Positions 1,650 to 61,022 of a stretch of 64,000 nt of DNA are shown piece after piece. The notes below the pieces were generated by a model that saw nothing but the letters and a program-made list of their open reading frames with translations, had not been told where the DNA came from and searched no databases. Within the stretch, counting starts at the first letter, position 1. Each line of letters starts with the position of its first letter. Both the position numbers and the translations under genes were made by a program. This DNA comes from Candidatus Saccharimonadota bacterium (GTDB lineage Bacteria > Patescibacteriota > Saccharimonadia > Saccharimonadales > Saccharimonadaceae): assembly GCA_017524405.1 (NCBI GenBank), contig JAFWSJ010000011.1, positions 62,001-126,000 on the forward strand, given 5' to 3'.

Positions 1650-3506
1650 CTACGGAATAATATATGGGTCAGTGCTTGTGCCGCTACCAGACGTAAAGCG
1701 CGTTCCCGCCTTCAGGGAAACCATCGGGCGAATTTTTTTCCGATCTACCGTCAGACAGGTATTGCCATGGTTAGAATCCCAACAATAGTTTGATGCATCA
1801 TGGAAGTAATGCGGCGTCATCGTAGCCGAAGCATAGCCAAAATACAAATACGCAGACGAAGAATTCATGCCAGCTAATATTAACTCGTCGTCCGTAATAA
1901 GGCCGATTTTATGCTTTAGCTTCGCATTTTCGTTCGATACCTGGAATGCGTCCCTAGGGTTAGAACAATCTAGGCTAGGCTCATAATTATTATCTGCATT
2001 TCTGATATTATTTCGGCCATGACTGCCAAAATAGCTCAACGACATCTCGCTGGCATCCTCGTCTTTTCCTTTCAGACTACCAGAATATAAACTGCGGTCG
2101 TTGCAGAAAACAGCGTCTTCGAGGTCGTTTTCATAATTTCTCGTCCCCTCTATATGTCCGTCAAGGTTCTCATTCTCAAACCAAGATTCAATAACCGTCT
2201 TGGCATTAGAATCGTGCTCATTAGCAAACATAGCCGTCTTTGCTGCCTCAATATCATCATAGCCACCAATTGCAAGATAATAAATCGTAGAAGTACTTCT
2301 GAAATTATAGAGATATCCAATTTCATCACTGCTGCAGCTAGCAGCGCCGTTACTACAGAAGTAGTGATAACGAGTAGCCGCCTCGGCCCTCTTATCCGAC
2401 CAGGTGCCAGTAATCGATTGGCCAGCTGACGTGTCGAGTGTATAGGTATCGCCGCTCCTTGAGACATTGTTCGAGAATATATACGTAGAATCAACATCGT
2501 ATGTATACTTGTAATATACACGATCTCCGTACATATAACCGACATCGGCCGGAGATACTTCGTTTATTACTTTATTATTGAATGGGTGCCAAGTTTGCCC
2601 GTCGACAGTAATACCGTCCGCATTTATGCCGGCGTTACATTGTCCGCTCGCAGGTGCCTGCACCCCGTCATAAATCATCTTCACGCCTCCGGTCGCGGTC
2701 GTACGTACGATCTTCCAGCAATAATTTGCCCAAATCACATAATTATCCGGTATTTTATCTCCACGAAAATAATAAACATCCTTGCCATTCTCAGTATACT
2801 TATTGACGCCCCACCCGTTCGTCCCAGTGAATTGAGTCGAATAATATCTTGGCTCTTCAGCGTATCGCGTAAAATCGATATCCATCGGCCCATTGACCTT
2901 TGCGGCAATAGCATTATATAGGTTAGACCACTCGTGCCTTGCGTCTGCTTGAATCGTTTGCACCGTAGCCTTTAAGTGATACGTTGCGTAATACCAAATC
3001 GAAGAACTATCGCTGTTAGAGCTACTATCAAAATTCGCATCACAATTCAATGTAACTCCAGTGATTAATGAGGTAGTAGTTTCGCCTGGAGCCAAATCAG
3101 TATCATACTCATAATAACCGTCCTTGAATGTCCAACCAGAATTCTCGGTAAAATTAACGATTGCGACGGTCATATCGGTACCGTACTTCACGAGCGGCTG
3201 ATGCCTACCGCTCTGATCAAGCCAATCCTCCTCGAGTTTGATACGTGCCGCAACAGGAATACTCGTCGATTCATTCGTCACGGTAATTGTTTTCGGAACG
3301 GTCTCACATGGCTGCCAATTGGCTGGCGCAGTAAAAACATCCGCCGCCGTCGTACGATAAACGGAAGGTCTAAACTCATTGCCGATAACTGCACGGCTGC
3401 TACTGAATGCATACGTAATGCCAATCCCTGCCCCAACTGCAACGAGACCGACTATCGCAATCAACGCTCCTTTTTTCTTTATGGAGATGCCAAACTTTTT
3501 CCCCAT
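1650..3506 (-). CDS. Exported surface protein, SipW-dependent/TasA-like N-terminus
   Basis: A 618-residue predicted surface protein. Residues about 11-36 form a hydrophobic export segment after a lysine-rich start. The next roughly 170 residues (VIGNEFRPSV, TITVTNESTSIPVAARIKLEEDW, then LAPGETTTS) resemble the alternate-signal-exported proteins processed by SipW in Firmicutes (BsaA/TasA type). The middle holds NYCWKIVRTTATGGVKMIYDG-type sequence and the end has a DRKKIRPMVSLKAGTRF motif, both common in large clostridial surface proteins. Function is unknown; a matrix or adhesive role is inference. The ATG at 3506 is preceded by a perfect AGGAGG five nt upstream, so I prefer it to the in-frame TTG at 3509. 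A terminator downstream is not obvious. Confidence 0.7.
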   Translation of the reverse strand: MGKKFGISIKKKGALIAIVGLVAVGAGIGITYAFSSSRAVIGNEFRPSVYRTTAADVFTAPANWQPCETVPKTITVTNESTSIPVAARIKLEEDWLDQSGRHQPLVKYGTDMTVAIVNFTENSGWTFKDGYYEYDTDLAPGETTTSLITGVTLNCDANFDSSSNSDSSSIWYYATYHLKATVQTIQADARHEWSNLYNAIAAKVNGPMDIDFTRYAEEPRYYSTQFTGTNGWGVNKYTENGKDVYYFRGDKIPDNYVIWANYCWKIVRTTATGGVKMIYDGVQAPASGQCNAGINADGITVDGQTWHPFNNKVINEVSPADVGYMYGDRVYYKYTYDVDSTYIFSNNVSRSGDTYTLDTSAGQSITGTWSDKRAEAATRYHYFCSNGAASCSSDEIGYLYNFRSTSTIYYLAIGGYDDIEAAKTAMFANEHDSNAKTVIESWFENENLDGHIEGTRNYENDLEDAVFCNDRSLYSGSLKGKDEDASEMSLSYFGSHGRNNIRNADNNYEPSLDCSNPRDAFQVSNENAKLKHKIGLITDDELILAGMNSSSAYLYFGYASATMTPHYFHDASNYCWDSNHGNTCLTVDRKKIRPMVSLKAGTRFTSGSGTSTDPYIIP

Positions 3507-46403: not shown

Positions 46404-49400
46404 TTAATACCGAGTCGGTAATTCACGAGAATAAGTTGTTGCCGCCTGGCTGAGACGAGACATCTGGTTGAAGCTCCAAAGGAAATTCGCCATGTTGAGG
46501 TTGAAGATTTCGGCACGGCGAATCGCATCGTCACCATTTCCGGCACCCGCAGTACGATTCAGCGCTAATTTTTTCACTACGACTGGCGCATCAAAGCGAA
46601 GTGACTGATTGCACACGTTGCTACTAATAATACTAGCGCCGGACTTGCCGCCAACTGCGACCCTAGTGCCTGAATCAAATCTACAAGTATTAACATTATC
46701 AGCAATAATCACGGCATTAATATATGTAGGTTGACTCGTAAAGTATACATTCTTCGCTATAATGATCACCTGCGTCAAATCGTCCGACCCAACCTTAAGG
46801 CCACCATCATAGTTTAGATTACCATCAATTACGATACTGTTTTCAGGCGCACTGTAAACTATAGTATGGTTCGGACTCTCAATGCCTTTCTCGGCAAATT
46901 GCTCATTCGAAATATTCGGCAATGAACTAATATAGAGATTCTTCTTGCTGTCAAAACGAATAATACCGGAAGGCGAAACAATCACGTCGCTTCCGCTGTA
47001 TCCGGATACGTCGTAATAAGTAGCAGTACCGCCGAATACTTTAGTCGGCAAACCAGTTATTTCAAACGTCCCGCCAGACGAAGCATAACGCTCTTTTATA
47101 CGCTGTTCGTATTGGCTTGCCATCACGCCACCAATCGAAGTGCTGCTAGTATTGCAATTCGCATTCGCAAAAGTCTGCGTCATAAAAGTGCACTCGTTCG
47201 AGTTTGTCTTTGTGGATACCTTGTTCCCGTCCGCACTCGCATCGTCGTTCGCGCGAGTCACATTCGCCACTCCATTTGCGCCCGAATAGCCATTACGCGA
47301 GTAGCCAAGCGCTGCGCCAGAAGCAAAGAGTGAAGCGTTAGACGAATTACTTACCCATACGCGACCGAATACGCCATATTCCGACCAAGAGCCAAAGTTA
47401 AACTTCTTTGAGCCAATAGTTCTCGTGTAATTTGCCGTTTTGAAGCTAGTGGCACTATAGGCATTCGAGGACTCGACACTCATCGACGGCTTCTTTGCGA
47501 TCGTGCTACAAGACACTGAGCTAACCCAATTCGATCCATTGCCAGAGCCATCGCTTATGGCAATATTATTATTGCCTGCACCATATACCGAAGCCGCATC
47601 TTTCTCGTCATGGCTGTCGGCCGGATAAACCGATACCTCAACGCAAACCTTATCGCCAACGCTCACGCCAGAGTTAGGAATCTGAATGTTTACCACTGGC
47701 AACTGGTTACCGCCATTATCGACGGACGTCTGGCTCTCCTGACCGGTCGTGCCGCTCAGATAGCCCTGGTTATTCAAGCGCGCCCCAGACCTGCTGCTAT
47801 TTGGCGCCGAAGCCTCGCTAATAATGCTCCCGCTAGCAGTCTTGAAATAATATTTAACATTTATTTCCGTTGGCTTCGTAATTGTAGCGTAATTCTGCTT
47901 GCCGCTTGGGAATGCAGTATTTGTACGTGCAACCGTCACAACACCAGGCGTCATCTTTAGAGACTCGCCAAGATATGCAACCTTACCGGTGTTACCGCTA
48001 TTGTTCGTCACATATGGTCTCAAGACGTAGTTGTACGGGACTACAACACTTGCCGAAGCGGTCCTTGGGGAATTGCCGAACGAACTTCCATTATAAGTCT
48101 GTTCATTCCAATTTAGCTTCTGCGTAATAACGCTGCCGACATCTATCGCGCCAACATCATATGTGCTATTGCGGGCGCAGTCGTCCTTACCGGCAATCTG
48201 ATAATAACCATCTTGCGTATTCGCCCCGCAAAGATAATTCTTGCCAGCCTGGCCATTTGGCGACCAGAAATCACCAACCAGGTTCTTGCCTCTCAAAAAA
48301 TTATAATTATGGCCATCATCGTAACTATGCCAGAAGCGCGGATTATAGAAAGTGCCATCAACTACCGACACGGACTGGCGGAATAAGTATCCATTCCCCC
48401 CATTATTTAGCCTCGTACTCTCGCCAGACGCCGAATAAGTCACGGTGTTCGATAAGTTCTTTTCTCGAATCGGATATAGTACGCCGGCACACATCTTATA
48501 GTAGAAGCGAATATTATCTGCTGGTCGCGCAAAAATCGAAACACCCATTTCCGAATAAGGCGTCGTATAAGTGGGGTCGCCATCACCAGTCAAATCATAG
48601 TTCTTTACGCCAATTTTACCAACGTTAGCGCCGTAATTTAGGCCGTACTGGAAACCTGGGAAATCATCGCAGGTCGCATTATCGCGCCAAACCGTCACGC
48701 ATTCCGACGCAGTCGCTGTAATATTTCCATTCGATGCGTCAATTTTACTCTTATAGGTTATATTGCCGCAGAATGTGATCGACTCTCCATAACGAAGATT
48801 TCCAGAATAAGTCTGCCCGGTAATATCGTCTCCCTTGCTCTGACCTTCCGTTCTATACGCTGCCCCGCTCGCTTCGTGGCTAGGAGAAGGAATACTGCCA
48901 TCTTTCTTCATCTCCGTATTCCACGGATCCCCGACCGTATCGCCGGCCGTGTCATTATTACGTTTGATATTATATGCAAAGTTTACAGTATACTTGCCCT
49001 CCGAATCGGTAATCTTCACCTTCTTGTTACTATCGATCGACGCATTCGTGCTGCCGTTTTTTACAGTAGGCGTCACACTCGCAGTAAACGTGGCCGGCGG
49101 ACGTTTCAGAACAATGGTTCTCTCTCCGGCAGATGCATAGGCCTTATTATTAACATTCGAAAGACGATATTGAAGTTCATGTTTATAAGTCTTCGCCTGC
49201 CCAGGAGTCAACGAAGCCCTATACCCACCAGAACCATTAGCATACTCAGTCGTTGAATATACTGGTTTATATTCATGGTCGGTAACGGCCTCGAACCTTA
49301 TACTTCCCTCAGCCGTGTCGGACCCTAGCCAATCGTTCTTTATCACCTTATAAGGCTCATCCTCGCCCGTAATAATCCCCATATCTCTTCTAATAAAATG

Positions 49401-50738
49401 GCTAAAAATTATTGGTTTACTAGTCGCACTATTAACGGTAATCGGGTTACTGGCACTAATCTCTGCGCCATTATAGGTCAATGATCCATCATAACTAAGA
49501 TCAGTCTTCCCTGTAAATTTGCTATACGGGGCCGTGTCGATCGTAGTACCACACTTGCTACCGCCCCATTCGAATGCAAAATCGGTCGTGTCAATCAAGA
49601 ATAGAGCACTCGTGCTGTTGTCGTCAGTCGCGCCGTTCTCGGAATTCGTGCAGTGGTTCCAAACATTCGTGCCGCTCACATTTACTAGAAAATTATGATA
49701 AATCGTATCGTCGTCAAAGACGAGCTCCTGTTCACCCGCGCGAACGGCCTTCTTACACTCGCCGTGTGTCCCGCCATCAAGGATATCTACCATCGAGACA
49801 TAGGTCTTCAGCCTTTTGCCGTCAACTTCTTCGTCGACGGCGCCCCTGATGTTGCCATCCCCGTCCCTCAAAAATTTGAAGTGCTCCGCATAGCGATAAG
49901 CCGAACTATACTCATTTGCGCCTTCTTTAGAGTGCATCCTATCGCCAATATCTATATCATTGAGTGCCCAAATCATCTTTTTTCCATCGATCTTATCGTG
50001 AGTCAAATGGTCATGGAGCTCGACCTTTACGTCAAAAATCGCACCGCCACGACAACGAGATTTGTCGACAAGCGACTTCCCAGAGAAAAATGACCAACCC
50101 TTACGCGCCTCATATCCAGAGTTCATGTTGTTGCCGTAGCCATACGCAATCGATACCACGGTCGAAGGACCGTCGTCCTTATCGCACGCGTATGTCCTAA
50201 CTCTAATATTCGAAATTGTCATGTACACGTCGTATGCTGCGCCAGTCTGTACATCAATTGCCGCCTCCGACGAAACAATCTTGATATAATCATTAGCTCC
50301 GTTATAAGTATAAGTTTTTTCGGTCGTCGAATCGCCATGGTTCCATGCAATAGCATAGCTATTTCCATGGTTTTCACCCTCGAAAACCATGTTTGTCGTT
50401 TTGTCTTTGTCTTTCGCATAGCAATCGAATGCACTACTCGTAGTCCCACTGAACGAGATGCTATAACCAGCCCATTCCGGGTGCTTGTTATCGTCGCCAG
50501 TATGCTTTTTGTTATAGCAAGCATAGTAGAAGCCGACCTTGTTTCGGTCCAATATGACGTCCGTCGGAATCATTTCGTTCTTAATGACAAGATTACCTTC
50601 CACCGTACTATATGCCTGGTCGTGCTTTCCCTCGATAGAAGCAACCCCTGCCGCCGAAACGCCTGGCGAACAAATCGCCGCTAAACCCACAGCAACTATC
50701 ATCGCCACCAGAACCGAAAGCATCTTCCGCTTAGTCAT
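46404..50738 (-). CDS. Giant surface protein B3
   Basis: A 1444-residue exported protein. The start is ATG 50738 with GGGGGAG six nt upstream; it overlaps the A3 stop (TGATG), and a GTG three nt earlier is too close to the SD. The signal peptide ends near CSPGVSAAG (about 30). A roughly 400-residue N-terminal domain differs from B1/B2 (VGFYYACYNKKHTGDDNK, SGYEARKGWSFFSG). Two Ig-like repeats follow, then the common core (IFARPADNIRFYYKMCAG, YPADSHDEKDA, SCSTIAKKPSMSVESSN, IIAKNVYFTSQPTYINAVII) and the tail ending LPTRY. It is the largest protein in the window. Many cysteines suggest disulfides. Confidence 0.85.
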   Translation of the reverse strand: MTKRKMLSVLVAMIVAVGLAAICSPGVSAAGVASIEGKHDQAYSTVEGNLVIKNEMIPTDVILDRNKVGFYYACYNKKHTGDDNKHPEWAGYSISFSGTTSSAFDCYAKDKDKTTNMVFEGENHGNSYAIAWNHGDSTTEKTYTYNGANDYIKIVSSEAAIDVQTGAAYDVYMTISNIRVRTYACDKDDGPSTVVSIAYGYGNNMNSGYEARKGWSFFSGKSLVDKSRCRGGAIFDVKVELHDHLTHDKIDGKKMIWALNDIDIGDRMHSKEGANEYSSAYRYAEHFKFLRDGDGNIRGAVDEEVDGKRLKTYVSMVDILDGGTHGECKKAVRAGEQELVFDDDTIYHNFLVNVSGTNVWNHCTNSENGATDDNSTSALFLIDTTDFAFEWGGSKCGTTIDTAPYSKFTGKTDLSYDGSLTYNGAEISASNPITVNSATSKPIIFSHFIRRDMGIITGEDEPYKVIKNDWLGSDTAEGSIRFEAVTDHEYKPVYSTTEYANGSGGYRASLTPGQAKTYKHELQYRLSNVNNKAYASAGERTIVLKRPPATFTASVTPTVKNGSTNASIDSNKKVKITDSEGKYTVNFAYNIKRNNDTAGDTVGDPWNTEMKKDGSIPSPSHEASGAAYRTEGQSKGDDITGQTYSGNLRYGESITFCGNITYKSKIDASNGNITATASECVTVWRDNATCDDFPGFQYGLNYGANVGKIGVKNYDLTGDGDPTYTTPYSEMGVSIFARPADNIRFYYKMCAGVLYPIREKNLSNTVTYSASGESTRLNNGGNGYLFRQSVSVVDGTFYNPRFWHSYDDGHNYNFLRGKNLVGDFWSPNGQAGKNYLCGANTQDGYYQIAGKDDCARNSTYDVGAIDVGSVITQKLNWNEQTYNGSSFGNSPRTASASVVVPYNYVLRPYVTNNSGNTGKVAYLGESLKMTPGVVTVARTNTAFPSGKQNYATITKPTEINVKYYFKTASGSIISEASAPNSSRSGARLNNQGYLSGTTGQESQTSVDNGGNQLPVVNIQIPNSGVSVGDKVCVEVSVYPADSHDEKDAASVYGAGNNNIAISDGSGNGSNWVSSVSCSTIAKKPSMSVESSNAYSATSFKTANYTRTIGSKKFNFGSWSEYGVFGRVWVSNSSNASLFASGAALGYSRNGYSGANGVANVTRANDDASADGNKVSTKTNSNECTFMTQTFANANCNTSSTSIGGVMASQYEQRIKERYASSGGTFEITGLPTKVFGGTATYYDVSGYSGSDVIVSPSGIIRFDSKKNLYISSLPNISNEQFAEKGIESPNHTIVYSAPENSIVIDGNLNYDGGLKVGSDDLTQVIIIAKNVYFTSQPTYINAVIIADNVNTCRFDSGTRVAVGGKSGASIISSNVCNQSLRFDAPVVVKKLALNRTAGAGNGDDAIRRAEIFNLNMANFLWSFNQMSRLSQAATTYSRELPTRY

Positions 50739-51610
50739 CACTTCTCCCCCTTTCTTGTGCCTAACAAATAGGCATCTATCGCTTCGCTTACGCTCTTATA
50801 CGTTTCGACCTCGCTATTATGAGAATATGCGATGCCGCTCTGCACAATTGTCATAGAAAATATATCTTCCCCACTCCTCTTTTCGTAACTGAACAAATGA
50901 TACATTCCAGATTCATCAAATTTTGGGAGCATTTTCACCGCTTCAAGATATCTTCCCTTTGGGTACACAGCACCTGCCTGAGGATAATACTCAGCCACCA
51001 AATCGCCATTATATTTAGCAACAAGCTCATTAATCTGAGTCTCGCTCAGCTCTTTTCCTGCAACTTCTTCAAAGAAGCGCAAGATAGGAGTCATATTTTC
51101 ACTCACATACTTCCGGTCATTAGCGTCGTTAATGTCTTTAATAATCTTCGGCACGAAAATCACACCGCAAACAATAAGCGTAACGGCCACAATTGCAGCT
51201 ACATAAATATACCAACGCTTCGCCCTGCGGCCGAGGAATCCTCTAATACGTGCTTGGCGATGCTCGCTCTCAAGCCTACTTTGTTCCTTTTTAAGCGCCT
51301 CCTCCTGCGCTACGACATCACTAGATGCTCCACTAATCTTGTCTTTTTTCTTCGATTCCTTCGAAACGCGCTTTGCCTCAGCTTCCATGCGCCTCTTTTC
51401 GGCGCGCTCCTTGCGCTTTTTATCTTCCGGCTTATCAAAATAATCAGCGTCATCGGACCTATCAATATCAGTGGCACGAAAACGTATATCTTCTGCGGCA
51501 ACTTTTCCCACAGAATTCATATCTACTGGCCCACCAGACTTCTCTTTAGGACTATTGTCCGGCTTAAAATCCACGGCACCACCAGAGAACTCCACATCTC
51601 CACTGTCCAT
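50738..51610 (-). CDS. Type-A tether protein A3 (bitopic, divergent exodomain)
   Basis: A 290-residue single-pass protein. The start MDSGDVEFSGGAVDFKPD is nearly identical to A2. The common motif follows (AEDIRFRATDIDRSDDADYF, DKPEDKKRKERAEKRRM, EAEAKRVSKES), then a longer coiled basic region. A membrane segment lies at about 133-155 (YIYVAAIVAVTLIVCGVIF). The extracellular domain (about 160-285) is unlike A1/A2: KELSETQINELVAKYNGDLV, AVYPKGRYLEAVKML, HLFSYEKRSGEDIFSMTIVQ. The inside part is thus conserved and the outside part variable. Leaderless, and directly coupled to B3 by a TGATG overlap. Confidence 0.82.
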   Translation of the reverse strand: MDSGDVEFSGGAVDFKPDNSPKEKSGGPVDMNSVGKVAAEDIRFRATDIDRSDDADYFDKPEDKKRKERAEKRRMEAEAKRVSKESKKKDKISGASSDVVAQEEALKKEQSRLESEHRQARIRGFLGRRAKRWYIYVAAIVAVTLIVCGVIFVPKIIKDINDANDRKYVSENMTPILRFFEEVAGKELSETQINELVAKYNGDLVAEYYPQAGAVYPKGRYLEAVKMLPKFDESGMYHLFSYEKRSGEDIFSMTIVQSGIAYSHNSEVETYKSVSEAIDAYLLGTRKGEK

Positions 51611-51686: not shown

Positions 51687-52997
51687 CTAAATCTCTTCTG
51701 GCTTCACGCGAATTTGTTCAGTCGTGTCACGATCGCGCACTGTCACAGTGCCATCCTCAAGCGTATCGAAATCAATAACAACACACTTTGGCGTACCAAT
51801 CTCGTCCTGCTTGAGATAACGCTTCCCGATATTTCCAGAATCATCCCAAGTCACATTCTTGTACTTGTTGCGGAGTATTTTGTATACTTCGCGCGCCTTC
51901 GCGACAAGCTCCGGCTTATTCTTGAGAAGCGGCGAAACACAGAAGCGATACGGCGCCAACTCTTCAGGGAGCGCCAAAACGATACGATTCTCCTCCTGGC
52001 GATACGCGTTTGCGAGCACCGCGAGAATCAAACGCTCAACGCCAATCGACGGCTCAATCACATGCGGGATAAAGCGCTCCGTGCTACCCTTCACGATATA
52101 TTCCATATTCTTGCCGCTCTCGCGCTGAATATTCGAAAGATCAAAGTCTGTACGATAGGCCAAACCCATCAATTCTTCCTGACCATTCGGATAGTCGAAC
52201 ATAATATCGACTGTACGCTTCGAATAGTGCGCACGGTCTTTCTCGCCAACCTCAATATCGTGGATATTTTCACTCTTCAAGCCCATTACATCGGTCAAGA
52301 ACTTATGGTTCTGTTCGAGCAATTTCTCGAAATTCTCTTCCCAAGTCGCCGGTGCAACAAAGTATTCAATCTCCATCTGCGAGCATTCGCGGTCGCGGAG
52401 AATGAAGTCGCGTGGCGAAATCTCATTACGGAAGGCTTTGCCCTGCTGAGCAAGACCAAATGGCAAGTCCGGATAAATCGAATCAACAACATTCTTGTAA
52501 TTTGTAAAAATGCCCTGCGCAGTTTCCGGACGGAGATAGGCAATAGAAGAATCGTCATTAACTGGACCAACATGCGTACTGAACATCATATTGAACTGGC
52601 GGATATCGCCCCATTCAATCTTGCCGCAAGTTGGGCACTTCACATTGAGCGCTTTAAATTCCTCTGTCGTCACGCTCTCGGTAATACCATCAGCGATTTT
52701 GTCCGCGCGGAAGCGACCATGGCAAGCGCCACATTCTACGAGCGGGTCAGAGAATGTCGCAGTGTGGCCAGAAGCAACCCAAGTACGTGGGTTCATAATA
52801 ATTGCTGCATCAACGCCGTAAATGTCCTCACGGCTCTCTACCCAGTAATTCCACCAGGCATCCATAATTTTGCGCTTCAAGGCAACGCCCATTGGGCCAA
52901 AATCCCAAGTACCAGCCATGCCGCCATAGACATCGCTGCCCGGATAAATAAATCCGCGGCGTTTGCACAAACTAACAATATCTTCCATTTTTGCCAT
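51687..52997 (-). CDS. glyS: Glycyl-tRNA synthetase (dimeric type)
   Basis: Charges tRNA-Gly in the cytoplasm. This is the single-chain alpha2 class II enzyme, 436 residues. It starts CKRRGFIYPGSDVYGGMAGTW, with motif 1 around LKRKIMDAWWNYWV. A zinc-binding insert has CGACHGRF and CPTCGKIEWGD. Motif 2 is FRNEISPRDFILRDREC and motif 3 HVIEPSIGVERLILAVLANAY. The C-terminal anticodon-binding domain ends with the usual HMRDRD-like VTVRDRDTTEQ. The TAAAAT hexamer is nine nt before the ATG. Monocistronic with a terminator. Confidence 0.97.
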   Translation of the reverse strand: MAKMEDIVSLCKRRGFIYPGSDVYGGMAGTWDFGPMGVALKRKIMDAWWNYWVESREDIYGVDAAIIMNPRTWVASGHTATFSDPLVECGACHGRFRADKIADGITESVTTEEFKALNVKCPTCGKIEWGDIRQFNMMFSTHVGPVNDDSSIAYLRPETAQGIFTNYKNVVDSIYPDLPFGLAQQGKAFRNEISPRDFILRDRECSQMEIEYFVAPATWEENFEKLLEQNHKFLTDVMGLKSENIHDIEVGEKDRAHYSKRTVDIMFDYPNGQEELMGLAYRTDFDLSNIQRESGKNMEYIVKGSTERFIPHVIEPSIGVERLILAVLANAYRQEENRIVLALPEELAPYRFCVSPLLKNKPELVAKAREVYKILRNKYKNVTWDDSGNIGKRYLKQDEIGTPKCVVIDFDTLEDGTVTVRDRDTTEQIRVKPEEI

Positions 52998-53018: not shown

Positions 53019-53720
53019 TTACAGGCTTTTGCTCTGCTCGGCACAGCGCACGATATATAGCACTTCGTCGAGCAGCTCACCGAAGCCCGCAACTTTCATG
53101 CAAATCTCGAGCGGCGACGAGACCATGAGCCGCATCAACTTGATATGCTCAGCCGTCACTGGACCGCCATCGCGCACCGAAAGCGCCCCATCCTCTACGT
53201 TCCAGACGTACTGACTCGAAGCCGAAAGCTTTTCGCCTGCCGTGTCGTATTTTAGGTTTATTTCCTCACCTGAAGCCATAAGCATATTCATACTCGCCCA
53301 AGCCCACAAAAGCTCCTTGTAGCGGCTAGGAGAGCCCGAGACGGCATGTTTCTGTGCGGCCTCCATACATTGGCGTAAAATATTAAAGAATTCTGGCGTC
53401 TCCGCCTGCTCTGCGCGACGCGAAGCCTCGCGCATAAGGCGCCCACCTAGGTCCAGAAGTTCGACATCTCCCACGAAAGCATCATAATGCTCCAACAGCT
53501 TCGCTGAAGTTAGGATCCCCAACTCGCCTTTGCCGTCATGAATCACCACTTCCGACACCGAAAACAGCTCAATTCCACCCGCGAGCTTGGATTTCTCGCG
53601 TCGGACGCCTTTTGCCATCACGGACTTCTTGCCTTCTGGCGTCAAAAGCTGCAAAATTCGGTCCGCCTCGCCAAAATTCGTCCGCTTCAGAACAATCGCC
53701 TTCGTCCTAAGATCACGCAT
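53019..53720 (-). CDS. recO: DNA repair protein RecO
   Basis: A 233-residue recombination mediator that helps load RecA on SSB-coated DNA. The N-terminal OB fold starts RDLRTKAIVLKRTNFGEADR, with LLTPEGKKSVMAKGVRREKSK, followed by a helical domain. Zinc-ligand cysteines usual in many RecO proteins are not evident. I place the start at 53720 from the family N-terminus; longer in-frame starts read into the receiver gene. It overlaps that gene's end by eight nt, making recO the third gene of a histidine kinase-receiver-recO operon. Confidence 0.92.
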   Translation of the reverse strand: MRDLRTKAIVLKRTNFGEADRILQLLTPEGKKSVMAKGVRREKSKLAGGIELFSVSEVVIHDGKGELGILTSAKLLEHYDAFVGDVELLDLGGRLMREASRRAEQAETPEFFNILRQCMEAAQKHAVSGSPSRYKELLWAWASMNMLMASGEEINLKYDTAGEKLSASSQYVWNVEDGALSVRDGGPVTAEHIKLMRLMVSSPLEICMKVAGFGELLDEVLYIVRCAEQSKSL

Positions 53721-54060
53721 AGCGCCCCACAATCTCAAGCAAATCGCTTGGCCGCATCGAACCCTTGTCGAACGCCGCCACAACACCGTATTTCTCAGCG
53801 ATATCGTCAGGCAACGAAACGCTGCTCACAATCACGACTGGCACATCCATGAGCTGCGGGTAGCTGCGCATCTCGTTGAGCACCGCAAATCCCGTCGGCC
53901 CAGTCAACAATACATCCAAAATCACGAGCCGAGGCGGCTCGTCAAAATCCATCGCCGCAATCGCCGCGATGCCGTCATGGAAGAATGCCAATTCCTGCCC
54001 CTTCAAAAGCCGGCGGTAGTAGCTTTCCCACCCACAATCATCTTCGAGAACAAAAATCAT
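53713..54060 (-). CDS. Stand-alone response-regulator receiver domain
   Basis: A 115-residue CheY-like receiver with no output domain. The acidic pocket is Glu6-Asp7-Asp8 (MIFVLEDDCG), the phosphoacceptor Asp49 (RLVILDVLL), the switch Ser79/80 (VVIVSSVS) and the conserved Lys99 (AAFDKGSM). Such single-domain regulators pass phosphate or act by protein binding. The ATG overlaps the kinase stop by four nt, so the kinase is its likely donor. It overlaps recO at the other end. Confidence 0.92.
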   Translation of the reverse strand: MIFVLEDDCGWESYYRRLLKGQELAFFHDGIAAIAAMDFDEPPRLVILDVLLTGPTGFAVLNEMRSYPQLMDVPVVIVSSVSLPDDIAEKYGVVAAFDKGSMRPSDLLEIVGRYA

Positions 54061-54731
54061 AAGAAACTCAGCTGCCCGGAAACCGGTAAATCAATATAAA
54101 AGCTCGTTCCGTCGCGATGGCGAATGAGCCCAAAATCACTATGCATATAACTAGAAAAACGCGACGCAATATAGAGCCCCAAACCGCTCGAGCCCGGACG
54201 CATCGGCGTCGCCACCGGCTTCTTCACGAAGCCATCTTTGATTTCGCGCCAGATCTTCGTCGGAATCGTCGGGCCAAAATCGCGCACTTCAATTCGAATC
54301 TTCGCTCCGCGATCATAGACCGCGATTTCACTCGGCAACTCCTCGCCGCCATAATTCATCGCGTTGAGGCAAAAGTTATAAACCACCGAATGTAATAGTT
54401 GTGTATTTGCCACCGCCAATCTACGCTTATTTCGATAATCAATCGAGAGTTCACGACGATTAAACTTAAACCATTGCCAAAGTTCATTCACAACCTCATC
54501 GCAAACCGCGCGCGGATTCACCGGCTCCATTTCGAATAATGCCTCATCAAGCCGAGCAATTTTTGTCAGATCATTCACCTGACGAATCGCACGGTCGCTC
54601 GTTGCTACGATTTGCTTTCCGACCTCACGCGCCCCCTCGAGGCTTTCCTCATAGTCCAAAGACAAGGCGAGCTGCCGCATCAAACTTAGCGGCGCCTTCA
54701 ATTCATGCGCAACTACTACCTCGCTTTCCAT
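54057..54731 (-). CDS. Soluble sensor histidine kinase without input domain
   Basis: A 224-residue cytoplasmic kinase. It starts almost at the H-box: His9 in VVAHELKAPLSLMRQ. The DHp helices run to about residue 65. The HATPase domain has the N-box YNFCLNAMNYGG (Asn123), the G1 box VRDFGPTIP, and the G2 box GSSGLGLYIASRF. There is no membrane segment, PAS or other sensor. The usual DxGxG of G1 is DFGPT. TAAAAT ends six nt before the ATG, so the operon is leaderless. Forms a unit with the receiver and recO. Confidence 0.9.
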   Translation of the reverse strand: MESEVVVAHELKAPLSLMRQLALSLDYEESLEGAREVGKQIVATSDRAIRQVNDLTKIARLDEALFEMEPVNPRAVCDEVVNELWQWFKFNRRELSIDYRNKRRLAVANTQLLHSVVYNFCLNAMNYGGEELPSEIAVYDRGAKIRIEVRDFGPTIPTKIWREIKDGFVKKPVATPMRPGSSGLGLYIASRFSSYMHSDFGLIRHRDGTSFYIDLPVSGQLSFL

Positions 54732-54737
54732 GCCTTC

Positions 54738-54743
54738 ATTTTA
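54738..54743 (-). promoter_or_regulatory. -10 element of the kinase-receiver-recO operon, leaderless
   Basis: TAAAAT on the minus strand, six nt before the kinase ATG. Confidence 0.65.
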
Positions 54744-54746
54744 TAA

Positions 54747-54787
54747 CAAAAAGCCTCCCATATAAAAGCATAAGGGGAGGCTATTTT
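54747..54787 (-). terminator. Rho-independent terminator
   Basis: AGCCTCCC/GGGAGGCT stem with a 15-nt loop and TTTTT on the minus strand, ending the 54794-55669 gene. Confidence 0.85.
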
Positions 54788-54793
54788 TGCTAA

Positions 54794-55669
54794 TTACGAG
54801 TTGCGACGAAGTTTCTTGACGAGCGTTTCAAAATCGCTGCGATATGCTTCGGCGTCAGTCTGCATCACAAGCGTCTTGTCGTTCACCTTGAGGAGAATCA
54901 CGATACCACGAATGCCATCCGCAATCTCACCCTCATACCAAGTACCAGACAAGGCGTTATCATCGGACGAGAACGCACGGGAAGTCAACTTACCATTTTT
55001 AATCTTCGTCTCATAGGAAGTCTGAACAGTCGTAATCTGACGATTGAGAATCTGGAAACGCAAGGCGTAACGAGAAGCCTTATTATTAACTGGGTCTACC
55101 TGCTTTGGCTGGAAATAGGCAACATAGTCGTTGTTACTCGTGCCGTCTTTCTCAATGTAGACGCTCCAAGTCTTCGGATACTCAAAGCTAATCGAACCAT
55201 AGTCGCTCGGGCCAGTAAAGCTATAGAATGGTTCCTTGGCGCGCTCCTCATAAGCCGCTTCGTCTTTGTCGTGCTGAGTTTTCTCGGCCGCGGCGACGGC
55301 TAGATTCTTCTCAGATTCATAATTCGTCTTGAGCTCGTTGTACTGCATGAAGAAAATGACTGCAAACACAATCGCAGCCGCTGCGATGATACAAACACCA
55401 ACGAGAACCAAAGTCTCCACGAGGGTATTCTTCTTCTCTGGCTTGAGGCCTGCACTTGGCGCAGTAGCCGTAGGAGCCATCGGAGGATTAACTGGTTGGT
55501 TCGGTGCCGGAACAGGATTTACTGGAACGACCGGATTCATAGGAGCTGCGCCACCAAAACTATTTGCTTGGGGCACATTCCCAGCTGGCGCCGCCTGGAA
55601 ATCATTATTCGCACCGGCCGGCATATTCGGCATCGGATTGAAACCACCCATATTAGACTGTTGATCCAT
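54794..55669 (-). CDS. Hypothetical single-pass membrane protein
   Basis: A 291-residue protein. The first roughly 80 residues are Pro/Asn/Ala-rich and cytoplasmic (MNPVVPVNPVPAPNQPVNPP). A membrane segment lies at about 86-110 (ETLVLVGVCIIAAAAIVFAVIFF). A short coiled linker and an extracellular domain follow (about 145-290: FYSFTGPSDYGSISFEYPKTW, RALRFQI, LSGTWYEGEIADGIRG). The exodomain pattern resembles PsbP/lipoprotein-like beta domains, but the family is not certain. The ATG is six nt after TATAAT, so leaderless, and a terminator follows. Confidence 0.78.
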   Translation of the reverse strand: MDQQSNMGGFNPMPNMPAGANNDFQAAPAGNVPQANSFGGAAPMNPVVPVNPVPAPNQPVNPPMAPTATAPSAGLKPEKKNTLVETLVLVGVCIIAAAAIVFAVIFFMQYNELKTNYESEKNLAVAAAEKTQHDKDEAAYEERAKEPFYSFTGPSDYGSISFEYPKTWSVYIEKDGTSNNDYVAYFQPKQVDPVNNKASRYALRFQILNRQITTVQTSYETKIKNGKLTSRAFSSDDNALSGTWYEGEIADGIRGIVILLKVNDKTLVMQTDAEAYRSDFETLVKKLRRNS

Positions 55670-59539: not shown

Positions 59540-59568
59540 AAATCTCCCCTAACCGGGGAGATTTTTTA
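59540..59568. terminator. Bidirectional terminator between rpmA and holA
   Basis: AATCTCCCC/GGGGAGATT stem with a TAACC loop and T runs on both strands. Confidence 0.9.
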
Positions 59569-60177
59569 TTTAGCGATTTTGAGCAGCGCAATCTTCACTG
59601 CCTCCCACGGCTCGAGACTGCTCGTTTTCATATCCATATCGGCCTGCGCCAAAATCTTAATGGCGTGCACAGCTTTCGGGTTGTTATACTGCAATTTCTT
59701 AATCGCCTGCGTCGTCATGAGCCCCACAAACATGAACGCATCATTCGTCAGCTCAATCTTCTCGCAAGCCTTCACCGCACCCTTCCCGTCCCCGCGGAAA
59801 GCCATATCGAGAATGTCAAAAACCAACTTCTTGTCAGGATCTTCCGCGAGCTTAAACTCTTTAAACTCAACGTTTTTGCCCTTCGTAAGCTCCTTATAAG
59901 CCGCAGAGCGCTTGTCGAGCTTCGTCTCCCAAATCACGACGTTATGCGAGCATTCGCCGACTAGCTGCGGCAGCATCGCGAAACACTCCTTATTCTCCGA
60001 CAGATCCTTAATAAGAATCGCTCGCTCGGTCGCAAATAGTGAAGTGCCGAGTAGCGCCGACGGCATATCGCCGACCGTCAAGCTCTCGCCTTCGACAATT
60101 TCATAATCGTCGCCTAGCTGGCGGTCAATCTGCTTGCGCGCCGTCACGCGGTCATCGCCGTAAAAAACCCGAATCAT
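59566..60177 (-). CDS. holA: Short HolA-like DNA polymerase III delta subunit
   Basis: A 203-residue protein resembling CPR versions of the clamp-loader delta subunit. MIRVFYGDDRVTARKQIDRQ matches the N-terminal P-loop-like strand; SLFATERAILIKDLSENKE and NVVIWETKLDKRSAAYKEL match the domain I core. Standard HolA is about 340 residues, so domain III appears reduced. I place the start at 60177, which overlaps the mutM stop as ATGA; longer in-frame starts lie inside mutM. Assignment is moderate because the sequence is divergent. Confidence 0.7.
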   Translation of the reverse strand: MIRVFYGDDRVTARKQIDRQLGDDYEIVEGESLTVGDMPSALLGTSLFATERAILIKDLSENKECFAMLPQLVGECSHNVVIWETKLDKRSAAYKELTKGKNVEFKEFKLAEDPDKKLVFDILDMAFRGDGKGAVKACEKIELTNDAFMFVGLMTTQAIKKLQYNNPKAVHAIKILAQADMDMKTSSLEPWEAVKIALLKIAK

Positions 60178-61022
60178 TTCTGACAGCCTCCGCAGTAATG
60201 CGTCCCGCGCCCAGCCGTGCGCGTCTTCAAGATCTCGCCCCCGCATCGCGGACATTCCTGCCCTTCACGACGAAACACTGAGGCGAATTTCTCGAGGTAA
60301 TTCCCGCGCGTACCATCCGCGCGTACATAATCTTTCATCGTCGAGCCGCCACTATCGATTGACGCTTGCATTACCTTGCAAAGCCCCTCGAGCAGCTTAT
60401 CGGATTCCTTGCGGGAGAGCGAGCCGCACTTTCGCCACGGCAAAATTCCGGCATAGAAGCACCCTTCGTCGGCATAAATATTCCCCACCCCAGCGATATT
60501 ATGCTGGTCAAGAATCACCGCCTTTACCGGCGAACCAGCGTGACGCCCCAGCATCTCATAAAACTCTCCGGGCTTCATATCCCACGGCTCCGGACCAAGA
60601 CTCGTCAAGAACTTATCCGTTGCGAGACTCAATTCGTCCATTACGGCCCAAAAGCCGAACTTACGCAAATCGTTAAAATATAGGTGCGTCCCATCATCGA
60701 GATCGGCATAAATCCGCGTAAAGCGCCCCGGCATCTTCTCGCGGAAACTCTCGTCCGGATGCCCGGCCGCAAAACGCTCCGCCCCATCATAAATCATCTG
60801 CCCGGTCATGCGAAGATGCGCCATAATCGTCAAATCGTTCGAAAGGCGAATCAGTAACGCCTTCCCGCGACGCTCGATTGCGATTATCTCAGAACCCTCA
60901 ACGAGCGATGGATCGCCGCGAAAACTTTTCTCACAAAGAATATGAAGCTTCAAAAAGCGTTTCCCCACAAGATATTTTTCGAGACCACGTCGAATAGTCT
61001 CCACTTCTGGCAACTCCGGCAT
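60174..61022 (-). CDS. mutM: Formamidopyrimidine-DNA glycosylase
   Basis: A 282-residue Fpg enzyme that removes 8-oxoguanine and cleaves the abasic site. The catalytic N-terminus PELPEVETIRRGLEKYLVGK carries Pro1 and Glu2 (after Met removal). A lysine-containing beta turn, the H2TH region (VKAVILDQHNIAGVGNIYADE), and the C-terminal zinc finger CPRCGG...THYCGGCQ are all present. Leaderless: TAAAAT with upstream TGA ends six nt before the ATG. It shares its transcript with holA. Confidence 0.97.
   Translation of the reverse strand: MPELPEVETIRRGLEKYLVGKRFLKLHILCEKSFRGDPSLVEGSEIIAIERRGKALLIRLSNDLTIMAHLRMTGQMIYDGAERFAAGHPDESFREKMPGRFTRIYADLDDGTHLYFNDLRKFGFWAVMDELSLATDKFLTSLGPEPWDMKPGEFYEMLGRHAGSPVKAVILDQHNIAGVGNIYADEGCFYAGILPWRKCGSLSRKESDKLLEGLCKVMQASIDSGGSTMKDYVRADGTRGNYLEKFASVFRREGQECPRCGGEILKTRTAGRGTHYCGGCQK

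Follow-up and report, generated by a model that had tools for sequence, protein, structure and literature searches.

A sensorless histidine kinase and a lone receiver encoded with recO in Saccharibacteria: a possible clamp-tethered repair adaptor

In a Saccharibacteria genome, the genes for a histidine kinase that has no sensor and a receiver that has no output domain overlap each other and recO. What would such a two-component pair do beside a recombination mediator? The original prediction was made on the window, the whole stretch of 64,000 nucleotides analysed here (contig JAFWSJ010000011.1, positions 62,001 to 126,000). It proposed that the kinase might respond to a cytoplasmic signal and that the receiver might act by protein contact. 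We compared the locus across the order and beyond, and the results suggest a kinase that may be held at the replication clamp by its C-terminal tail and a receiver that may work with RecO.

The operon and its conservation

The kinase, receiver and recO genes form an overlapping minus-strand operon between UP1 and glyS, and they lie exactly where they had been predicted. The features are as follows (all on the minus strand).

51687..52997, glycyl-tRNA synthetase gene (glyS), neighbour downstream of recO, profile match
53019..53720, RecO, 233 aa, ATG start 8 nt inside the receiver frame
53713..54060, stand-alone receiver of 115 aa that retains the phospho-acceptor Asp49 and the acidic pair and shows the family signature E63..S66-Y67 plus K99
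53914..53916, codon of the phospho-acceptor Asp49 of the receiver
54057..54731, histidine kinase of HisKA type with no sensor, 224 aa, made up of a two-helix DHp and an ATPase domain (Pfam, AlphaFold2, Foldseek)
54060..54074, codons of Q220-L-S-F-L224, the clamp-binding-like tail of the kinase
54705..54707, codon of the phospho-acceptor His9 of the kinase
54738..54745, TATAAAAT, a -10-like element by sequence, ending 6 nt 5' of the kinase ATG
54747..54781, hairpin GCCTCCC/GGGAGGC and T-run in the gap between UP1 and the kinase, a probable terminator by sequence
54794..55669, UP1, predicted membrane protein (one hydrophobic segment by eye), usual neighbour upstream of the kinase

The kinase starts with an ATG, and no in-frame ATG, GTG or TTG is found back to the upstream stop. 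Eight residues precede His9, not nine as predicted, while the start close before the phospho-histidine and the lack of a sensor hold: no input or sensor domain was found in the reading frame or by Pfam. HATPase_c matched at 44 bits (cut-off 26.4) and HisKA at 25.2 bits, just below its cut-off of 26.9. The kinase keeps His9 and the N, G1 and G2 residues of the ATP site (alignment row HEPNNDG). Its AlphaFold2 model has a pLDDT of 83.5, and the closest folds in Foldseek are the HK853, DivL and YycG/WalK kinases, with the HK853-RR468 pair on top. Response_reg is the sole Pfam match of the receiver (28.9 bits, just below the cut-off of 30.2); no output domain was found by Pfam in its 115 aa, as predicted, and the response-regulator residues (EDD, D49, S and K) are kept. 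RecO matched RecO_N at 73.2 bits (cut-off 27, Pfam) and TIGR00613 at 68.4 (cut-off 48.7, NCBIfam). Its start was taken as the ATG at 53720; a GTG at 53786 would lengthen the frame. The frames overlap by 4 nt between kinase and receiver and by 8 nt between receiver and recO. Since a hairpin with a T-run and then TATAAAAT lie ahead of the kinase ATG, the sequence suggests that the kinase has its own, possibly leaderless, promoter.

UP1 matched no Pfam family above the cut-off, and by eye we presume that it may carry a PsbP/DcrB-like domain. PADLOC gave zero matches for the kinase, the receiver or RecO as defence proteins. The window genome (898 kb, 99% complete) contains four HATPase_c matches: the window kinase, a kinase on contig C11, and one each on C17 and C15, which we take to be gyrase/MutL-type ATPases. 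The C11 kinase adjoins the only other receiver match of the genome. Near the block, a 1445-aa open reading frame (46404-50741, minus strand) has a signal-peptide-like start by eye.

Among 138 genomes drawn from the order, 132 have recO, and four of the six without it are only 63-78% complete. Loci were fetched from 148 order genomes, and 147 recO loci were scored after one genome (G023) whose contig ends before recO was dropped; G090, G113 and G154, with recO fragmented or near a contig end, were outside the locus set. The receiver is directly upstream of recO in all 147, and the kinase is there as well in 146. The synteny survey that the original prediction called for thus found the triplet recurring across the order, and the arrangement is not chance. 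The triplet is also present in all eight further order loci. In one of these (G122, L297, 1556-2120, recO orientation) the kinase appears split in two frames, by a sequencing error or as a recent pseudogene, with the receiver and recO frames open. With start codons picked by rule, 105 of the 146 triplets show an overlap of the receiver frame with recO, and 55 show one of the kinase frame with the receiver. Natural fusions among the three proteins were not found in the loci searched. Records titled Nomurabacteria or Chloroflexi (L203, L213, L257) carry a Saccharibacteria-type locus and their titles are probably mislabelled.

In 20 of 20 loci, each from another family, there is no open reading frame of at least 80 aa among the three genes, and 9 of the 18 of these that show glyS have open reading frames between recO and glyS. 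Of the 20 order loci, 18 have UP1 ahead of the kinase, and a contig end cuts one of the remaining two; UP1 also precedes the kinase at L352, L353 and L357. Since this wider block, xseA-UP1-kinase-receiver-recO-glyS, is itself conserved in the order, some of the linkage may only reflect a gene order that became frozen. A close kinase homologue is present in 34 of 36 genomes of the same genus. The other two (G017, G027) are without the kinase, the paired receiver and recO, and they also have no proper glyS match; thus, these absences are likely to be assembly gaps, and we discarded the co-loss of the three genes as evidence.

The exceptions show which partners stay together. In two loci (L207, L211) receiver and recO are together beside other genes, from their translations a tyrosyl-tRNA synthetase and a phosphoesterase, and a methionyl-tRNA synthetase, and the kinase is elsewhere in the same genomes, at the xseA-UP1 locus. 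One of these two genomes (G316) has two short-kinase loci and thus may be a mixed bin. Another genome (G085) keeps receiver and recO, and there is no kinase at the locus, where UP1 is still present; the remaining kinase matches of this genome sit in frames of at least 377 aa. In family f20, recO was found in neither of two genomes. G081 keeps kinase-receiver-glyS, G055 has the kinase alone at the locus, and the tail is retained in both. Receiver and RecO are therefore the tightest pair, and a kinase, or a kinase and receiver, can outlive recO, which indicates that RecO is not the sole client. Independent movement of the pair in relatives would have refuted the predicted tie, and it is seen in part. 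The kinase is apart from recO in two genomes, and in f20 the kinase or both proteins persist where recO was not found, but the receiver stays with recO where the kinase has left. The predicted tie of the receiver to recO, and its action by protein contact instead of an output domain, are supported by both the 147 adjacent loci and these two genomes.

Related arrangements were found in both genomes from other orders of the class. In G261, a minimal active-looking kinase, a receiver and recO are in a row, and in G218 a PAS/GAF kinase and a receiver are followed by a NUDIX gene (L271, 2574-3020) and recO. Among other genomes of the phylum, 5 of the 48 recO loci read have a related arrangement, three of them with a kinase; in two of the 48 (L274, L385) the sequence ahead of recO is shorter than 900 nt. 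Outside the class, family f82 (G228 L302, G254 L368, G307 L369) has a long kinase, a receiver and recO in a row, and the clamp-like tail is absent. The G228 kinase, the only f82 member tested for PAS, has a PAS input domain. It is possible that the f82 arrangement is an ancestral stage. In family f99 (G268, G315), receivers precede recO and no kinase match is beside them. These are one or two lone receivers (L376 in G268, 2435-3323; L380 in G315, 2834-3253; recO orientation), and a penicillin-binding-protein gene is upstream of those in G268. In two other Patescibacteria (L375 in G198, L305 in G178) a DUF4012 protein of about 660 aa is encoded directly upstream of recO. The simplest path would be that a sensor kinase and a receiver came to lie beside recO, the sensor was then lost, and catalysis was lost later in many lineages.

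Catalytic residues and the receiver surface

Of the 146 triplets, 55 have His in the phospho-histidine column of the kinase, 61 have Glu and 11 have Asp, and the rest have other residues; one kinase (G049) is cut off before this column and was scored as not His among the 91. The phospho-aspartate column of the receiver is Asp in 68 and Glu in 74. Combined, 54 triplets have both His and Asp, 77 have neither, 14 have Asp without His and one has His without Asp. Since both catalytic residues are gone in 77 of 146, phosphotransfer is not the conserved function. The proposal of a kinase that answers a cytoplasmic signal is thus possible for the lineages that keep His and Asp, including the window, and does not extend to the 77. 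The window pair keeps both residues and hence is not itself a pseudo pair, and its family keeps both in 44 of 46; the other two (G155, G168) have lost both and retain the tail Gln. A strict coupling of His and Asp loss was considered and is inexact, because 14 of 146 lost His only (12 of these in family f36) and one shows the reverse.

A RecO tree, in which 30 same-genus rows were thinned to six and one recO fragment was dropped, was rooted with G228. The outgroups are active-looking, and well-supported branches force at least three changes of the His and Asp state. Three independent pairs lie on well-supported branches, nearly always in the same direction, and they are too few for significance. 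Eight pairs of close relatives were compared, three of them pseudo pairs. The pseudo pairs have dN/dS values of 0.03-0.05 (kinase) and 0.05-0.09 (receiver), and the five active pairs are similarly low; dS exceeds 1 in several of the eight. By this sample, the low values indicate that the kinase and receiver genes are not decaying.

The most conserved positions of the receiver include E63, S66, Y67 and K99, rather than the phospho-Asp. In its AlphaFold2 model (pLDDT 93.7), E63, S66 and Y67 fall where helix 3 ends and directly behind it, and K99 follows strand 5. These positions may form a contact face for RecO or for the kinase.

The C-terminal tail of the kinase

One column of the kinase alignment has zero entropy, and only one: a Gln (Gln220 in the window) within the final 5-10 residues, present in 146 of 146 sequences. 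The tail follows the pattern Q-[LM]-x-[LF]-[VLIF], and there are 4-9 residues after the Gln in all 146. Position 2 is Leu in 122, Met in 12 and Ile in 6 (140 together); position 4 is Leu in 105, Phe in 29 and Ile or Met in 11 (145 together); position 5 is Val in 77, Leu in 33, Ile in 23 and Phe in 7. The tails of relatives include QLSLF, QASLF, QARLF and QLNLF, and the kinases of G261 and G218, from other orders, end in QLSLFE and QLPLIE. A strict tail pattern of our own matches 128 of the 146 kinases, 49 of the 55 that have the His and 79 of the 91 scored as not His, compared with 2 of 742 other open reading frames. A looser pattern matches 141 of 146, compared with 13 of 742 other frames. 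The looser pattern was found in none of 22 other kinases whose C-terminus is complete, of which 20 were picked by hand and two were added. We also read the named loci, which are the best 80 of 543, partly the same as the genome sample and thus not independent. There the strict pattern fits only 41 of 76 kinases, because many have Ala, Val or Glu at position 2 or Trp at position 5; the looser pattern fits 76 of 77, and QASLF occurs in 16 of 77. The AlphaFold2 model has a pLDDT of 46 for the tail beyond the last strand, a predicted disordered and accessible end.

The tail resembles the sliding-clamp motif QL[S/D]LF, which is placed at the C-terminus in a review (PMC9690074, PMC13254535). The revised consensus is QPhi-x-[LM][FL] or QPhi-x-[LM]-x-[FL] (PMC13254535). 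Under a strict reading of this consensus, 19 of the 146 tails and 35 of the 77 tails from the named loci (best 80 of 543) agree with it, and the window tail QLSFL fails it with its Phe at position 4. Since the strict consensus fits few tails and not that of the window, we do not class the kinase among the clamp-binding proteins, although it probably works like them.

The Y-family polymerases of the same genomes (L311-L330), taken as a positive control, have QTDLF, QVDLF and QLGLF motifs, part of them read by eye; a regular expression caught 8 of 19, and QLGLF, QLSF and QLCF were seen by eye in others. Among eight Y-family polymerases of the window genus there are three with QLSF, three with QLCF, one with QLCL and one with QQSF, so that six of eight resemble the window tail QLSFL. 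The motifs QTDLF/QVDLF, QLGLF and QLSF/QLCF read as a local flavour of clamp motifs in the order. In the window, an open reading frame at 59566-60255 (minus strand) has by eye the look of a clamp-loader delta subunit, with a GTSLF segment that we take to be like the clamp contact of delta. DnaN is encoded in the window genome next to recF. RecF was above the cut-off in 47 of 61 genomes, the window genome included, which rules out the module as a substitute for a missing RecF. A 2026 paper states that the bacterial clamp has been shown acting in post-replication gap repair via RecF (PMC13254535), which makes a clamp route for the module plausible.

Proposed role, alternatives and known systems

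In the model that we propose, the two-helix DHp domain would hold two copies of the kinase-fold protein together as a dimer, and the C-terminal Q-[LM]-x-[LF]-[VLIF] tail of this protein would hook the DnaN sliding clamp. The receiver, made together with RecO, would bridge the clamp-bound kinase dimer and RecO, and RecO (with RecR and RecF) would thereby be placed or gated at post-replication gaps on newly replicated DNA. Where the pair keeps the catalytic residues, as in the window genus and in a minority of families, His-to-Asp phosphotransfer may switch the contact between receiver and RecO. In most families sampled, the two proteins would be a pseudokinase and a pseudoreceiver that work by binding alone, with the contact constitutive or otherwise switched. 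Judging from the sequences, the tail probably binds the clamp, and the receiver seems somewhat more apt to control RecO than not. For both parts together, with a kinase or pseudokinase tethered to the clamp as the adaptor for positioning or controlling receiver-RecO at replication gaps, the chances are evenly balanced. A shade below even, we tentatively suggest an order-wide conversion of a two-component pair into a clamp-tethered, receiver- and RecO-coupled repair adaptor, which was phosphorylation-controlled and then became repeatedly and independently phosphorylation-free.

Other explanations partly overlap with this proposal and with each other, and their probabilities need not sum to one. 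The pair might be an ordinary small two-component system that signals elsewhere, with recO merely a neighbour in the housekeeping block from xseA to glyS. The synteny of that block, the f20 genomes that keep kinase or kinase-receiver without recO, the HK853-RR468 pair as top fold matches, and window residues that look compatible with real phosphotransfer would all suit this. However, L207 and L211 have receiver and recO side by side away from the block, the one further receiver match of the window genome adjoins its own kinase, and 77 of 146 triplets are without both catalytic residues, yet the three sampled pseudo pairs are under purifying selection. We therefore regard an ordinary pair as unlikely. 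That UP1 is a split-off sensor of the kinase is more doubtful still and quite improbable: although it precedes the kinase in 18 of 20 loci and at L352, L353 and L357, a terminator-like hairpin separates the two genes in the window, G085 still has UP1 although it has no kinase at the locus, and the phospho-His is absent from most of the 146 kinases.

The tail itself might dock onto a partner other than the clamp, such as RecR, SSB, a protease adaptor, or the receiver or RecO, and the Val or Ile that ends most of the 146 tails in place of Phe or Leu, with only 19 fitting the strict consensus, would be explained in this way. But textbook QLSLF, QASLF and QLNLF tails occur in several lineages, Y-family polymerases of the same genomes have matching motifs, and the tail persists in G055 with receiver and RecO gone from the locus, which makes another partner improbable. 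A clamp-bound kinase or pseudokinase could also regulate replication or the access of translesion polymerases to the clamp, with RecO co-expressed and not the target. The two genomes in which the kinase is apart from receiver-recO and the kinase retained without recO in f20 fit such a role, but the three genes are together in 146 of 147 recO loci, and we give it a low probability. The RecO-coupled adaptor is the reading that we prefer.

To our knowledge, no histidine kinase has earlier been known to signal from, or merely to sit on, the replication clamp. A literature search on histidine kinases, clamp-binding motifs and DnaN found none (subscription papers and most preprints were outside the search), and no histidine kinase with a clamp-binding motif was among the matches listed. 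Similarly, no description of a kinase-receiver-RecO module was among the matches listed for recO, the clamp, or two-component systems of Saccharibacteria and Patescibacteria. If the proposal is true, it would join two-component signalling physically to recombination mediation in bacteria with reduced genomes (0.9 Mb here). Its lineages would form a natural gradation, from active kinase to pseudokinase, in which the genomic partners stay unchanged, and both the tail peptide and the receiver-RecO contact can be tested directly. How pseudo-receivers work, which is called a mystery in PMC12632262, is a question on which the module also bears.

Among known systems, HK853-RR468 of T. maritima has the same kinase core fold and a receiver partner, and the window pair keeps the His, the Asp and the ATP-site residues. 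In contrast to that system, the window kinase has no sensor or membrane part, is joined to recO and ends in a clamp-like motif, and most sampled relatives of the pair have lost the catalytic residues. DivL, a pseudokinase, is among the closest folds to the window kinase. Pseudo-histidine kinases and pseudo-receivers are described as missing key residues and still acting in signalling (PMC12632262). Unlike the DivL type, both partners are here degenerate in the same genomes and beside a DNA-repair gene, while the window copy is intact. Sliding-clamp clients with clamp-binding motifs include Pol II, IV and V, MutL, MutS, RecF and RecB. The kinase shares with them a Q-hydrophobic-x-hydrophobic-hydrophobic tail at the extreme C-terminus (motif as described in PMC13254535 and PMC9690074), but its position 5 is mostly Val or Ile. 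Compared with RecF-RecO-RecR gap repair, the module has a true RecO, and since RecF is present in most of the genomes (47 of 61), it is not simply a RecF substitute; what sets it apart is the extra kinase and receiver partners encoded beside recO.
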